Below are positions 2,110 to 32,134 of a stretch of 40,832 nucleotides of DNA, in pieces. The stretch comes from Candidatus Azobacteroides sp. GTDB lineage: Bacteria; Bacteroidota; Bacteroidia; Bacteroidales; WRGA01. Each line of letters begins with the position of its first letter. Positions within the stretch are counted from its first letter, which is position 1. The notes beneath the pieces are model-generated. The model saw only the letters and a list, made by a program, of their open reading frames with translations, ran no database searches and had not been told where the DNA came from. Location of the stretch: assembly GCA_009787405.1 (NCBI GenBank), contig WRGA01000108.1:1-40832 (forward strand), written 5' to 3'. A program made the translations under genes and the position numbers.

Positions 2110-2159
2110 GAGTTGAGAGTTAAGAGTTAAAAGTTGAGAGTTGGGGGTTAAAAGTTAAG
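2107..2159. repeat. Heptanucleotide array, unit GAGTTAA, abutting prmA stop
   Basis: About seven imperfect copies of GAGTTAA (variants GAGTTGA, AAGTTGA, GGGTTAA) in register. The array starts on the prmA stop codon and runs into the left end of the palindromic element at about 2156. Confidence 0.85.
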
Positions 2160-2644
2160 TATGGTGGAAAAATAGTTTATATTTTAAACGCCAAGTCGCA
2201 AAGGCGAAAAGACGCAAAGTTTAAAATCTTTGCGGCTTTGTGTCTTTGCATCTTCGCGTTTAAAATAATTTAAATTAATGATTATCGGATATTGCACCTA
2301 CCTATCCCCAAATTGGGCGTAAAAATGTAATATTCGTTTTTTTTGAAAAATCCGGTCTGAAAAATATTGCCTTCTGTCCCGCCGGGGACAACATATCGGT
2401 AGAAAGGAGAGTCCTTCCGGTGACCAAAGTCCCGGCAGGGACGTAATGTAAAGAAGAAAACATGTTGTCCCTGACGGGACAGAGGGTGAAGGAGGGTGTT
2501 TTTCTACCGATATAATGTCCCTGACGGGACAAAAAGAACGAATATTTTCTTGAAGCATCGACACATTTTTACACCCCGCCTGCGGGGATAGCCGGGTACA
2601 ACATCCGATAATCATTTTTAAATTAAATTTTGCCGGGTACTTAA
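2156..2644 (+). repeat. Dispersed palindromic element, copy A (interrupted)
   Basis: The core at 2186-2261 is an imperfect palindrome: a 34-nt left arm beginning AAACGCCAAG pairs with a right arm ending TTCGCGTTT at roughly 26 of 34 positions around TTTAAAAT. Copies B (21148-21289) and C (32000-32134), both in the opposite orientation, share the core and its flanks (AGTTTATATTTTAAACGC on one side, TTAAATTCTG then GGGTACTTA on the other). In copy A that last flank is found only at 2617-2644, because another element occupies 2278-2616. No protein is encoded. Confidence 0.75.
2278..2616. mobile_element. MITE-like inverted-repeat element nested in copy A
   Basis: The ends are inverted: ATGATTATCGGAT at the left and ATCCGATAATCAT at 2603-2615, and the complementarity continues inward for about 50 bp (GTAAAAATGT against ACATTTTTAC). 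Inside lie four 14-bp palindromes of form GTCCCnnnnGGGAC (2376, 2429, 2467, 2517) and inverted copies of ATATCGGTAGAAA (2393-2405 and 2501-2513). A 9-bp direct repeat TTTAAATTA brackets the element (2269-2277 and 2617-2625), as expected for a target-site duplication. No transposase is encoded, so it would be non-autonomous. Small open frames inside it are by-products of the repeats. Confidence 0.7.
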
Positions 2645-2759: not shown

Positions 2760-4190
2760 TAAATCGGTAATGGGTTTATACTTGGGAACCAACGATTTCA
2801 TAACGATCCAACCGATCAGATAAGCAACGGCACAGAAACAGAAAACAATAAAATATCCGGCAGTCTTGCCTTCAAAACCTAAAAGCTGAAATTTTTCAAT
2901 CTCTGCAAAAACGAATAATTTACCGGAGCCTTTGTTGATTATAAAAGAACCGATACCGCCGGCCATTCCTCCGATTCCGATAATGGTTGCAATGGCTTTT
3001 TTGGGAAACATGTCGCCTACGGTAGAGAATATGTTTGCCGACCACGATTGATGAGCAGCTCCCGCAAGACCGATAATAATAACCGAAAACCAGTACGAGT
3101 ATGCGGCTAACGGCTGTGCCAACAAGATAAGCAGCGGAAAGAAAGCAAATATCAACATGGCCCGCATACGGGCGGTATAGGGGTCTTTGCCGGTTTTATT
3201 AATGATAATCGTCGGTAATTTACCTCCATATAAAGAAAGCATTACAATAGCATAAAGAACTGTGAGAGGCAATATTTTTTGCCTTTCCGTCAGTTTGCAT
3301 ATTTCTCCCATGTATTTCGGCATCCAGAACAGAAGAAACCACCATACGCCATCGGTCATAAATTTACCGAACGCAAACGACCATGTTTGTTTATACCTGA
3401 AACATTGAAGAAACGATACTTTTTCTTTTACGACAACATCCTCCGATTCTTTGTCGGAGAGAATGTATTCCAATTCCGCATTGTTTACGCGCGGATGTTC
3501 GTCCGGTTTCTTATACAGGAATATCCAGAATCCCATCCAAATGAATCCCAGAATACCGATAATGAGGAAAGCCCATTCCCAGCTGAAAACCGCAGCCAAC
3601 GGAATAATGCTTACCGGAGCGATCATGGCGCCGATCGTTGCGCCGGAATTAAAAATACTTGTGGAATACGCCCTGTCTCTTTTGGGAAAATATTCGGCTG
3701 TAGCCTTGATGGCAGCCGGAAAATTTCCCGCTTCTCCAAGCGCCAATATCGCACGGGCAAAAATGAATAATCCCATTGAAATGCTTGCCACCCATGCAAT
3801 GTCGGATATCCCTTTAATAATTTCTTTCGCTCCGATAAATCCGACAAACCAACTTCCCTCCGCAATTCCGGAAACAGCTATGCCGCAAAATGCGTGTAAA
3901 CAAGCCCCCACCGACCATATTCCGATAGCCCATAAGAATCCTTTTTTTGTTCCCATCCAATCGACAAAGCGACCGGCAAACAGCATACATACAGCATAAA
4001 ATAATGAAAAAAATGCCGTGATCGTTCCGTAATGATTATCGTCCCAGTGAAATTCCGACTGGATTTCCGGCGCGAGCAGAGACAATACTTGCCGATCCAA
4101 ATAGTTGATTGTTGTGGCAAAGAACAGCAATGTGCAAATAACCCATCGGTAATTTGTCATTTTTTGATTTTGATTGTTTAAGGTATTCAT
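2757..4190 (-). CDS. exuT: MFS hexuronate transporter, ExuT/UxuT type
   Basis: A 477-aa inner-membrane permease of the major facilitator superfamily, anion:cation symporter branch, probably importing galacturonate and glucuronate. About twelve hydrophobic segments are visible. The first carries the family sequence TTINYLDRQVLSLLAPEI, and the loop after helix 2 has GRFVDWMGTKKGF, matching the MFS motif A position. The length exceeds E. coli ExuT (~430-470) because of hydrophilic insertions near residues 105-125. It is the last gene of the leftward uronate operon, 18 bp after eda. The start at 4190 was chosen over Met11, although Met11 (TNYRWVICTLLFF) is a possible alternative. Substrate is inferred from family and neighbours. 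Confidence 0.88.
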   Translation of the reverse strand: MNTLNNQNQKMTNYRWVICTLLFFATTINYLDRQVLSLLAPEIQSEFHWDDNHYGTITAFFSLFYAVCMLFAGRFVDWMGTKKGFLWAIGIWSVGACLHAFCGIAVSGIAEGSWFVGFIGAKEIIKGISDIAWVASISMGLFIFARAILALGEAGNFPAAIKATAEYFPKRDRAYSTSIFNSGATIGAMIAPVSIIPLAAVFSWEWAFLIIGILGFIWMGFWIFLYKKPDEHPRVNNAELEYILSDKESEDVVVKEKVSFLQCFRYKQTWSFAFGKFMTDGVWWFLLFWMPKYMGEICKLTERQKILPLTVLYAIVMLSLYGGKLPTIIINKTGKDPYTARMRAMLIFAFFPLLILLAQPLAAYSYWFSVIIIGLAGAAHQSWSANIFSTVGDMFPKKAIATIIGIGGMAGGIGSFIINKGSGKLFVFAEIEKFQLLGFEGKTAGYFIVFCFCAVAYLIGWIVMKSLVPKYKPITDL

Positions 4191-4877: not shown

Positions 4878-4880
4878 AAA

Positions 4881-4925
4881 GTTAAGAGTTAAGAATTAAG
4901 AGTTAAGAGTTAAGAATTAAGAATA
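4881..4925. repeat. Heptanucleotide array, unit GTTAAGA, between kdgK and eda
   Basis: About six units of GTTAAGA/ATTAAGA in register fill the leader of eda within the operon, directly upstream of its start codon. Confidence 0.8.
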
Positions 4926-8991: not shown

Positions 8992-10425
8992 ATGAAAGCT
9001 TTAAACAGAAAAACAGTTCAGGTCCGGACATATCCTGAACGCATCATTCAATTTGGTGAAGGTAATTTTTTACGTGCATTTGTGGATTGGATTATTTTTA
9101 ATATGAATGAAAAAACCGGATTCAACAGCGGCGTAGTGGCGATTCAGCCGATCGAAAACGGCATGGTGGATGTGTTGAACGCTCAAGACGGGCTTTATCA
9201 CTTGAATCTGCAAGGAATCGACAAGGGTGAAAAAATCGACAGCATTCAACTGATTGATGTGATCAGCAGAGGCTTGAATCCGTACACTCAATTTGACGAA
9301 TATCTGAAATTGGCCGAAAATCCGGACATGCGCTTTGTGATTTCAAACACGACCGAAGCGGGCATCGCATTCCGCGCCGAAGATAAATCGGACGACAAGC
9401 CGGCTCGATCTTATCCGGGTAAATTGACTCAGCTGCTTTATCATCGTTTCAAAACATTCAACGGCGACAAAAGCAAAGGCTTTATTATATTTCCCTGCGA
9501 ACTGATTTTCCATAACGGCGCCGAACTTAAAAAATGTATCGAACAATACATTCAAATCTGGAATCTCGGAAATGAATTTGAAAGTTGGTTTCATGAGGCA
9601 TGCGGCATATATTCTACGTTGGTCGACCGCATTGTTCCGGGATATCCCAAAGATACGATTGATTCGATTTTGCAAAGAATCGGCATGGAAGATAAGTTGG
9701 TGGTGAAAGGCGAGATTTTCCATTTATGGGTGATTGAAGCACCCGAAAGCGTTGCCGAAGAATTTCCTGCCGATAAAGCGGATTTGAATGTTTTGTTCGT
9801 TCCGAACGAAAAACCGTATCACGACAGAAAGGTAACGTTGTTGAACGGCCCGCACACCGTTCTTTCTCCGGTTGCTTATTTATCGGGATTGGACACCGTA
9901 AGGGAAGCGGTTGAAGATCCGGTCGTGGGCAAATTCGTGCATAAAGTGATGTTCGACGAATTGCTTCCGACTCTTGATCTTCCGAAAGACGAACTGGAAA
10001 AATTCGGCAACGATGTGTTGGATCGTTTCCGTAATCCGTTTGTAAAACACTTTGTTACCGGCATCATGCTCAATTCGTTTCCGAAATTCAAAACCCGTGA
10101 TTTACCCGGTTTGAAAATTTATTCGGAACGAAAGGGGGAATTGCCTTCGGGATTGGTATTGGGATTGGCCGGTATTTGTGTATATTATAAAGGAGGAAAA
10201 CGCGGTAACGACGTCATCATTCCGAACGACGATAAAGTCATCACCGACCTGCTGACCGAACTTTGGAAAACAAACGACCCTCAAAAAGTGGCGGAAGGTG
10301 TTTTGGCTTCGGAATATATTTGGGGTGAAGATTTAAATCAAATTCCCGGATTTACCGACAAATTGGCCGGATACATTCAATCGATCCTGAATGTGGGAAT
10401 GTTTGAAACAAGTAAAATTATTTGA
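8992..10425 (+). CDS. uxaB: Tagaturonate reductase (altronate oxidoreductase)
   Basis: A 477-aa NAD-dependent polyol dehydrogenase of the mannitol dehydrogenase family that reduces D-tagaturonate to D-altronate. Nucleotide-binding segment RIIQFGEGNFLRAFVDW (17-33) is at the N-terminus. The C-terminal catalytic domain carries KVTLLNGPHTVLSPVAYLSG (280-299) with the family's catalytic Lys280 and the Asn/His pair. The ATG at 8992 is chosen because an in-frame GTG at 8950 lies inside the operator palindrome and adds residues that do not fit the family. It faces the same way as uxaA and is separated from it by the four-helix-bundle gene. Confidence 0.93.
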   Translation: MKALNRKTVQVRTYPERIIQFGEGNFLRAFVDWIIFNMNEKTGFNSGVVAIQPIENGMVDVLNAQDGLYHLNLQGIDKGEKIDSIQLIDVISRGLNPYTQFDEYLKLAENPDMRFVISNTTEAGIAFRAEDKSDDKPARSYPGKLTQLLYHRFKTFNGDKSKGFIIFPCELIFHNGAELKKCIEQYIQIWNLGNEFESWFHEACGIYSTLVDRIVPGYPKDTIDSILQRIGMEDKLVVKGEIFHLWVIEAPESVAEEFPADKADLNVLFVPNEKPYHDRKVTLLNGPHTVLSPVAYLSGLDTVREAVEDPVVGKFVHKVMFDELLPTLDLPKDELEKFGNDVLDRFRNPFVKHFVTGIMLNSFPKFKTRDLPGLKIYSERKGELPSGLVLGLAGICVYYKGGKRGNDVIIPNDDKVITDLLTELWKTNDPQKVAEGVLASEYIWGEDLNQIPGFTDKLAGYIQSILNVGMFETSKII

Positions 10426-10460
10426 CAAATGGACAATTTACAATTTACAATTTGACGAAT
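10423..10460. repeat. Heptanucleotide array, unit ACAATTT, behind uxaB
   Basis: Units GACAAAT, GGACAATTT and two clean ACAATTT copies start at the uxaB stop codon. The complementary unit AAATTGT is repeated at 10877-10934, so the two arrays are inverted around the small gene between them. Confidence 0.75.
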
Positions 10461-10491
10461 ATCAAAAATGTGTGAATAAATAGATATACAT

Positions 10492-10887
10492 ATGAATAAA
10501 TATGATTTAAAAGACCGGTTACAGGATTTTGCCATTCGAATCATAAAAATGGCTGAAAAATTACCGGATACCGCCAGCGGATTAATCGTAAAAAAGCAAA
10601 TTATACGTTCCGGGACGTCTCCGGGTGCAAATTATCGTGCAGCTTGTATCAGTAAATCCGGAAAAGATTTTATCAACAAACTGAAAATAGTTGAAGAAGA
10701 ATTGGACGAAACGATTTATTGGCAAGAAATCATTATCAAAACGAATATGCTGAAATCCGATTTATTACAAAGTTTAATGCAAGAAAATAAAGAACTTCTA
10801 TCGATCATTATTTCATCCATAAAAACAAGTAAAAATTCACTCTTATCATCAAAATACAACAACGATGAAATCTCCGACAAATTGTAA
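10492..10887 (+). CDS. Four-helix-bundle protein (S23/IVS-type)
   Basis: A 131-aa, mostly helical cytoplasmic protein of the family named after proteins encoded in 23S rRNA intervening sequences. Diagnostic features are the DFAIRII segment near the N-terminus, KKQIIRSGTSPGANYRAA (34-51) and the EEELDETIYWQEII segment (68-81). Family members are about 110-135 aa and form a pentameric barrel of four-helix bundles; their biological role is not established. It sits between uxaB and uxaA, bracketed by inverted heptanucleotide arrays, so it looks like an insertion into an older uxaB-uxaA pair rather than a pathway enzyme. The last codons already lie in the right-hand array, and the Lys/Ser/Asn-rich tail may be derived from it. 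Confidence 0.85.
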   Translation: MNKYDLKDRLQDFAIRIIKMAEKLPDTASGLIVKKQIIRSGTSPGANYRAACISKSGKDFINKLKIVEEELDETIYWQEIIIKTNMLKSDLLQSLMQENKELLSIIISSIKTSKNSLLSSKYNNDEISDKL

Positions 10888-10934
10888 ATTGTGAAATGGT
10901 AAATTGTAAATTGTAAATGGTGAAATGGTAAATC
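10877..10934. repeat. Heptanucleotide array, unit TAAATTG/TGAAATGG, before uxaA
   Basis: About seven units (AAATTGT, GAAATGG, TAAATTG, TAAATGG variants) run from the end of the four-helix-bundle gene to just before uxaA. The array is the inverse complement of the one at 10423-10460. Confidence 0.8.
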
Positions 10935-16354: not shown

Positions 16355-16396
16355 AACTCATAACTCTTAATTCTTAACTCTTAACTCCTAACTTTT
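16355..16396. repeat. Heptanucleotide array, unit CTTAACT, abutting yigZ start
   Basis: About five units (ACTCATA, ACTCTTA, ATTCTTA, ACTCTTA, ACTCCTA) run to the TTG start codon of the next gene. Confidence 0.8.
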
Positions 16397-20234: not shown

Positions 20235-20299
20235 ATTTCAACTCAACCCGATTGATCCGTTGCAGAAAATACAAATATTAAACTCATCCATACCGGCTT

Positions 20300-20332
20300 C
20301 AACTCTTAACTCTTAATTCTTAACTCTTAACT
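20300..20332. repeat. Heptanucleotide array, unit CTTAACT, abutting a TTG start
   Basis: About four and a half units (AACTCTT, AACTCTT, AATTCTT, AACTCTT) directly precede the TTG start of the AlkD-like gene. Confidence 0.8.
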
Positions 20333-21010
20333 TTGAAAGATCAGGTTCATCAGCTGAAAAAACTGCTTCGCTTATCCATGAATGGCGTAACAGCAGCAAG
20401 TATGAGGGAAAAAGGACTGAATTACAGCTTGAATTTCGGCGTGTCGATCCCTCAATTGAAAAATATTGCCGGCAAATTTTCCCGAAATCATGAATTGGCC
20501 GAGTATTGCCGTAAGTCAAAGTCCCGGGAAATGAATATATTGGCAACCCTGTTGTACCCCGTCGATGGCTTTTCGTCCGAAACAGCGGATGAATGTGTGA
20601 AAAACATCCCGACGACGGAGATCGCCCGGCAATACTGCATGAATCTGTTTCAATACCTTCCTTACGCCGAAGAAAAAGCCATATCGTGGATTACCCATGA
20701 ATCAGTATCGATCCGCACGACCGGTTACCTGTTGTTGCTCCGCTTATTGGCAAAAAACACACCGGTTTCAAAAGAAAATGAACGTATTTTTTTGTCCCGG
20801 GTAAAAGATGATTCAGAGTCCGACTATTTTGCATTGAAGGAAGCAAGTATCGACTGCCTCAAACGATACGGAAGAAGAAACAAAGCGTATGCCGAAGAAG
20901 CGTTACATTGCATTTCCGATTTTGAAAAATCATCCGATCCGGCAAAAAAAGAATACTATGAAGCAGTGAAATTCGACCTCGAGTTTTATCTTGATATAAA
21001 ATCACCCTAA
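20333..21010 (+). CDS. DNA alkylation repair family (AlkD-like) HEAT-repeat protein
   Basis: A 225-aa all-helical protein whose repeating helix pairs (ISWITHESVSIRTTGYLLLL, FALKEASIDCLKRYGRRN) suggest HEAT-like repeats of the DNA alkylation repair superfamily, whose AlkC/AlkD members are glycosylases for alkylated purines. FGVSIPQLKNIAGKF (35-49) resembles the N-terminal AlkD-type motif. I could not verify the catalytic Trp/Asp/Arg set, so activity is uncertain; many Bacteroidota members are uncharacterised. It starts with TTG at 20333; the next ATG would remove the first helix. The start abuts a heptanucleotide array, as in yigZ. Confidence 0.7.
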   Translation: MKDQVHQLKKLLRLSMNGVTAASMREKGLNYSLNFGVSIPQLKNIAGKFSRNHELAEYCRKSKSREMNILATLLYPVDGFSSETADECVKNIPTTEIARQYCMNLFQYLPYAEEKAISWITHESVSIRTTGYLLLLRLLAKNTPVSKENERIFLSRVKDDSESDYFALKEASIDCLKRYGRRNKAYAEEALHCISDFEKSSDPAKKEYYEAVKFDLEFYLDIKSP

Positions 21011-21102: not shown

Positions 21103-21147
21103 CAACAATTTTTTTAATCGTTATAAAAAAACATGTTTTATTCGATA

Positions 21148-21289
21148 TAAGTACCCGACAGAATTTAATATCTACTATTTTAAACGCGAAGATGCAAAGA
21201 CACAAAGAATTTAAACTTCACGTCTTTCCGATGTTGCGACTTTACGCCTTAGCGTCTAAAATATAAACTGTTTTTACGACATCCTTATG
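21148..21289 (-). repeat. Dispersed palindromic element, copy B, abutting ileS
   Basis: The same element as copies A and C, inverted relative to A. The core AAACGCGAAGATGCAAAGAC begins at 21182 and the other arm ends GCGTCTAAAATATAAACT near 21269. The outer end, TACGACATCCTTATG, contains the ileS start codon. No protein is encoded; a 64-codon open frame through it is chance. Confidence 0.75.
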
Positions 21290-31929: not shown

Positions 31930-31999
31930 TTCCCGGTAGAATATGGCAATTCTTTTTGATTTCCCGGGAAAATTCTTAGCGAATTTCAGGTATTGTTAT

Positions 32000-32134
32000 T
32001 AAGTACATGGCAGAATGTAATTTATAATATTTTAAACGTGAAGATGCAAACCCACAAAGATTTTAAACTTCACGTCTTTCTGTCTTTGTGACTTGGCGTT
32101 TAAAACATAACTTACTTTTTGCGACATGCTTATG
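32000..32134 (-). repeat. Dispersed palindromic element, copy C
   Basis: Same orientation as copy B, complete from TAAGTACATGGCAGAATG to GCGACATGCTTATG. The core runs from AAACGTGAAGATGC (32034) to GGCGTTT (32101). It lies 70 bp behind the AAA-nuclease gene. Confidence 0.75.

Follow-up and report, generated by a model that had tools for sequence, protein, structure and literature searches.

A 340-bp IS1595-family MITE in a Candidatus Azobacteroides genome, with a body probably derived from the ends of a Y1 transposon

MITEs with ends that match those of an IS, MITEs nested in one another and REP-like repeats at Y1 transposase genes are all known kinds (PMC4596501, PMC3733652, PMC6006769). Among the Bacteroidota, Porphyromonas gingivalis carries MITE239, MITEPgRS and BrickBuilt (PMC4596501). 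For ISApl4, a member of the IS1595 family, AT-rich 8-bp repeats have been reported (PMC12561309). Among the Y1 transposases, TnpA_Y1 subclass 1.2, which is marked by the signature Y---Q--HH and occurs in Bacteroidetes and Cyanobacteria, has no REP listed and is described as generally lacking typical terminal structures; the automatic search used in that study accepted hairpins only if the stem measured at least 7 and the 5′ foot carried GT[AG]G (Quentin et al. 2018, PMC6006769).

Here we analyse a stretch of 40,832 nucleotides from Candidatus Azobacteroides sp. (contig WRGA01000108.1; the window), in which a small element has inserted into a second dispersed repeat (Table 1). This nesting, proposed in a preliminary description made from the sequence alone, is borne out, as the tail of the outer repeat resumes after the insert. 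With a probability of roughly 87%, we propose that the small element is a non-autonomous IS1595-family MITE, the body of which is a once-captured pair of Y1 transposon ends that has been amplified as cargo by an IS1595 transposase.

Table 1. Features of the nested insertion (window coordinates)
Feature	Position	Strand	Basis
Outer dispersed element, copy A	2156..2644	-	Ends TAAGTA / TACTTA, split by the inner element; copies and alignment
Left 8-bp target-site duplication	2269..2276	+	TTTAAATT; sequence and statistics of the duplications
IS1595-family MITE, 340 bp	2277..2616	+	Genomic copies, target-site duplication, ends common to the IS at G000:C70
Left terminal inverted repeat	2277..2300	+	22 of 23 aligned positions equal to the IS1595-family IS end (95.7%, E 1.9e-6)
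105-codon open frame	2298..2615	-	Judged not a gene
Y1-element end module 1	2376..2442	+	Hairpin GTCCCGCCGGGGAC, box ATATCGGTAGAAA (2393-2405), hairpin GTCCCGGCAGGGAC; profile match to Y1-gene flanks
Y1-element end module 2, inverted	2467..2530	-	Hairpins 2467-2480 and 2517-2530, box 2501-2513; profile match to Y1-gene flanks
Right terminal inverted repeat	2595..2616	-	21 nt identical to the other IS end (100%, E 5.4e-7)
Right 8-bp target-site duplication	2617..2624	+	TTTAAATT; sequence and statistics of the duplications

The nested insertion and its IS1595-family partner

The outer element, which is ~135-145 bp long and has a long internal palindrome between its inverted ends, is present in about 40 copies according to a genome search, three of them in the window (2156-2644, 21144-21282 and 31998-32134). 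Its terminal TA may represent a duplicated target dinucleotide, like that of IS630-type MITEs. When copy A is rejoined across the insert with a single TTTAAATT kept, it aligns without offset to about 30 of the other outer-element copies, so that a paralogous empty site is visible. An orthologous empty site was not found, the MITE being absent from both same-genus genomes searched. Further IS1595 MITEs and two free copies of the Y1 module described below lie inside or adjoin outer-element copies (L003, L012, L039, L130, L133, L203 and L204), perhaps more often than expected by chance. Heptamer runs (TTAAGAG / CTCTTAA), which flank the outer element at 2156-2644, are found near gene ends at 2106-2157, 2716-2751, 4878-4922, 16355-16393 and 20298-20333. 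Elsewhere in the window (10422-10932), the gene of a 23S rRNA-intervening-sequence protein (10492-10887, PF05635) lies between inverted ACAATTTACAATTTACAA repeats.

The inverted ends ATGATTATCGGAT / ATCCGATAATCAT first ascribed to the inner element can be read from the sequence, and its right end at 2616 stands; the left end had been placed one base off, and the element runs for 340 bp from 2277 instead of 339 bp. Other genomic copies have the ends AATGATTATC...GATAATCATT and thus the same boundaries, so that the observation named in the preliminary description as one that would speak against the insertion does not arise. Specifically, among 35 elements of 295-350 bp with the ends AATGATTATC...GATAATCATT, 12 are bracketed by perfect 8-bp direct repeats, compared with an expectation of 0.51 for re-paired flanks (at most 4 in any of 2000 shuffles), and none by 9-bp repeats. 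The 9-bp duplication claimed earlier is therefore rejected in favour of 8 bp: the ninth base in copy A belongs to the element itself, being its terminal A at 2277, and equals the base after the right-hand repeat by chance. The insertion flanks are 84% AT, compared with 60% for the window.

Search counts for the genome give more than 40 full or near-full copies of the element, most of them 79-91% identical, and 215 occurrences (at most one mismatch) of the end motif TGATTATCGGATG versus 1 for a reversed control pattern, which corresponds to about 100 elements. Of the end motifs listed, at least 29 lie within about 200 bp of contig ends, indicating that the elements break the assembly. At another site (L089, G000:C99:22752-22819), two IS1595-type end repeats alone, without modules, make up a 72-bp near-perfect palindrome.

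One MITE-type end runs into a 1.0-kb IS in the same genome (G000:C70, ~2886-3886), and this IS, the single one in the genome with the MITE's ends, is the full-length, transposase-bearing relative that the preliminary description had suggested looking for. Its single ORF encodes a 312-aa protein that contains both the catalytic domain DDE_Tnp_IS1595 (PF12762, E 3.9e-22) and an N-terminal zinc ribbon (Zn_ribbon_IS1595, PF12760), which places the element in the IS1595 family, and that matches the NCBIfam model of IS1595 family transposases (NF033547, E 1.5e-58). In an alignment of 19 proteins, its residues D133, D217, N255 and K257 are near-invariant, and no other IS1595 transposase gene was found in the genome. 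The alignment between MITE and IS is significant over 21 and 23 terminal nucleotides alone (E 5e-7 and 2e-6; 21/21 and 22/23 identical), and the interiors are dissimilar. Because the ends match this lone IS over 21-23 bp and the interior does not, the 340-bp element is an IS1595-family MITE; additionally, it has a constant duplication length equal to the family's 8 bp, many copies and no transposase gene. An internally deleted IS was rejected as the source of the interior, the similarity being confined to the ends.

No clean 8-bp duplication was seen at the flanks of the C70 IS, and its transposase has no match in the two same-genus genomes. The closest named relatives of this IS are mostly Bacteroidales. 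Relatives have ATGATTATCC-type ends, some with 8-bp duplications (TAAAATAA at L235; TAATGAAT in Flavobacterium branchiophilum, L260), and comparable ends occur in records from Parabacteroides, Paludibacter, Tannerella forsythia and Flavobacterium branchiophilum.

Two-hairpin modules in the MITE and at Y1 transposase genes

The interior of the MITE is built from a two-hairpin module, GTCCCnnnnGGGAC-3-ATATyGGTAGAAA-~24-GTCCCnnnnGGGAC, which is present twice, in inverted orientation. The four GTCCCnnnnGGGAC palindromes (2376-2389, 2429-2442, 2467-2480 and 2517-2530) and the inverted ATATCGGTAGAAA boxes, on the plus and minus strands respectively, are present as reported in the preliminary description, which had seen the GTCCC palindromes and the boxes and given no interpretation of either. 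The interior was first traced through short matches found in other families of this order. Of 395 Bacteroidota genomes, 11 contain the pattern GTCCCNNNNGGGACNNNATATNGGTAGA, with zero control hits, and in several of these 11 it adjoins a Y1 (PF01797) transposase gene. The genome studied here holds one intact Y1 (HUH) transposase gene (G000:C114:41351-41695, within a 166-codon frame), both flanks of which carry the module.

To avoid circularity, a profile was trained on 65 modules from MITE copies alone. This profile gives four matches at the Y1 locus of the genome, on either side of the gene (E 1.4e-10 to 7e-8), and further matches at Y1 loci in other genomes; shuffled loci give none at E<10, and the best of 80 IS1595 loci reaches E 0.7. 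In a second set of 28 Y1 loci from other Bacteroidota, a few of which overlap the first set, 21 loci match at E<1e-3, and in the usual layout one module ends just 5′ of the start codon, with a second, inverted module downstream of the gene. In several genomes, modules in inverted orientation thus bracket Y1 genes. The Y1 genes of the same-genus genome G001 have no such hairpins nearby, which implies that the hairpins do not accompany every Y1 gene.

Perfect 5-bp stems of the form GNNCC-loop-GGNNC reach 3.58 per kb at distances of up to 300 bp from these Y1 genes, versus 0.16 per kb beyond 600 bp. Such stems lie within 300 bp at 24 of the 28 loci, at 12 of them on both sides, mostly with a spacing of 49-54 nt, and total 59 compared with 0.1 in shuffled flanks; an earlier set of 17 Y1 loci gave 5.2 versus 0.42 per kb. 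The two inner stem bases, for which pairing was not required, can pair in 92 of 123 cases, where chance would give 1 in 16. Several letter pairs are involved; the stems covary, and it is thus the pairing that matters, beyond the letters themselves.

The Y1 protein encoded on C114 carries the motifs DHVH, WQ and YIQRQEYHH and, judged by the motifs HUH (DH[IV]H), WQ and Y---Q--HH, fits TnpA_Y1 subclass 1.2. It scores 73.8 bits with the IS200/IS605 model of NCBIfam (cut-off 55) and 30.8 bits, below the cut-off of 80, with the model of REP-associated tyrosine transposases (REP_Tyr_transpos, NF047646). In a REP, a GTAG or GTGG tetranucleotide precedes the hairpin by 0-2 nt on its 5′ side, and the hairpin stem measures at least 7; here the stems are 5 bp and GGTAGA sits about 9 nt 3′ of the hairpin. 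With two defining features failing, membership of the canonical REP/RAYT group (TnpA_REP, class 2) was rejected, and on the strength of the NCBIfam scores and the hairpin features we name the repeats Y1-element end modules, not REPs. With their 5-bp stems, they would fail the search rule of Quentin et al. (2018).

Another MITE-like element, found in genome G028 and ended by CACTACTGACCGGTTAAAAT, contains the same type of Y1 module (L052, 1438-1653; L332, 574-786). Its two full copies have coinciding ends but no clear target-site duplications, and the arrangement is at most suggestive of an independent capture of Y1 modules.

Proposed capture and spread of the module pair

Module copies without IS1595 ends are also present in the genome (C45, C109, C85 with three in tandem, C37, C15, C59, C44 and C100), in addition to the Y1 element itself (G000:C114:40949-41881). 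In nearly all of the free copies read, the final ~66 bp of the Y1 gene persist beside the modules, and in BLAST alignments most have one deletion point in common. This retained remnant indicates that the module behaves as the end of the Y1 element, and the free copies seem to form a second non-autonomous family, with the Y1 element as its source. In the MITE body no such ~66-bp remnant was found by BLAST, the few matches at MITE loci being outside the element or marginal. Among MITE copies, module identity is 0.86 at the left position and 0.83 at the right, whereas left and right modules are 0.65 identical to each other and either is 0.60-0.65 identical to the Y1-flank modules. Because each position is tight while left and right are as divergent from each other as from the Y1 flanks, the inverted pair was most likely acquired by the MITE lineage in a single event and copied as a unit thereafter.

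The sequences thus show the ends, the duplication, the copy number, the partner IS, the homology of the modules and the common origin of the pair, and from these we infer the following course. The IS1595 transposase of the single-copy IS would act in trans on the ~22-bp terminal inverted repeats, and insertion into AT-rich DNA by an 8-bp staggered cut would leave TTTAAATT on either side. Almost nothing of the IS remains inside the MITE. As its body it carries two of the hairpin modules in inverted orientation, which correspond to the ends of an unrelated IS200-like Y1 (HUH) transposon present once, at C114. This end pair, contributed by the Y1 element or a deleted derivative, would have been captured once between IS1595-type ends, either as an end pair or through insertion of a Y1 element into an IS1595 MITE followed by deletion. 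The chimera would then have been amplified to about 100 copies, and the Y1 enzyme would no longer be needed for its current spread.

That the Y1 enzyme still takes part is the nearest alternative: both the IS1595 DDE transposase, through the terminal inverted repeats, and the Y1 transposase, through the hairpin modules on single-stranded DNA, would spread the 340-bp unit. Each element does preserve both types of end, one enzyme of either kind is encoded in the genome in apparently intact form, and Y1-type modules also occur alone, as the free copies show. However, all intact copies checked end at the IS1595 terminal inverted repeats, the module pair has evolved as one unit with the MITE, and among the copies read no MITE-derived pair has been freed from those repeats, which makes spread by both enzymes quite unlikely. 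A dual-use chimera, with outer ends that serve a double-strand DDE enzyme and inner modules that serve a single-strand HUH enzyme of Y1 subclass 1.2, is likewise an unlikely arrangement; if true, two mechanistically unrelated enzymes could spread the same DNA, and subclass 1.2, thought to be REP-less, would have its own phylum-wide inverted two-hairpin end.

The remaining readings leave the Y1 enzyme aside. The modules could be retained for a role as transcription signals or structured RNA and resemble Y1 flanks only secondarily, and the strand indeed folds far better than shuffled versions (z -10.6), as would any long inverted repeat. Yet Rfam gave no match above the gathering score, only sub-threshold matches to miRNA models, mostly on the outer palindrome, and a regulatory RNA does not predict a fixed module geometry at Y1 genes across the phylum; we consider this very improbable. 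Equally doubtful is an ordinary nested MITE with palindromes as unremarkable filler: although Bacteroidota MITEs with IS-matched ends are known from Porphyromonas gingivalis (PMC4596501), the homology of the modules to Y1 flanks (E 1e-10, with clean controls) and the covarying hairpins argue against filler. As for a small protein encoded by the element, the 105-codon minus-strand frame is open in copy A but closes after 0-60 codons in most of the 28 full-length copies and has no Pfam or NCBIfam match; a coding element was rejected on these grounds, and its chance is practically negligible. The capture of a Y1 end pair by an IS1595-family MITE accordingly remains the reading that we prefer.

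Comparison with described systems

In the literature searched, which mostly did not extend to subscription papers, we found no report of a MITE with a body made from the ends of another transposon, nor of hairpin ends for subclass 1.2. If the capture reading holds, a MITE has multiplied another transposon class's ends to about 100 copies, and the amplified modules would be decoy or substrate sites for the Y1 enzyme. Subclass 1.2, described as REP-less, gains candidate ends with covarying hairpins that are conserved across Bacteroidota, and these make its end recognition and mobility testable. With at least 29 contig ends lying in them, the elements also shape how such genomes assemble.

Like the present element, the MITEs of P. 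gingivalis come from Bacteroidota, have terminal inverted repeats that match a resident IS, and include one MITE nested in another (PMC4596501). They differ in that they match IS5-family ISs, and we saw no Y1-type end modules reported as their cargo (PMC4596501). With ISApl4 (IS1016 subgroup) and IS1595-family MITEs, the system shares a DDE transposase with IS1595 domains, short terminal inverted repeats and AT-rich 8-bp duplications (PMC12561309). Unlike ISApl4-type IS1595 systems, however, about 100 MITEs here have just 21-23 terminal bp in common with one IS, their body comes from another transposon class, and their terminal inverted repeats start with ATGATTATC and not with GGGGCTGTA.

The modules resemble REP/REPIN sequences and their RAYT (TnpA_REP) in being short palindromes that form inverted pairs, are dispersed in the genome and flank a Y1 gene, but they lack GTAG at the 5′ foot, their stems are 5 bp, and the Y1 protein falls under the model cut-off. 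With TnpA_Y1 subclass 1.2, the Y1 protein of this genome shares the signature Y---Q--HH and the occurrence in Bacteroidota; in contrast to the published subclass, for which no REP is listed, the genes described here lie between inverted modules of two hairpins each, with stems of 5 bp.
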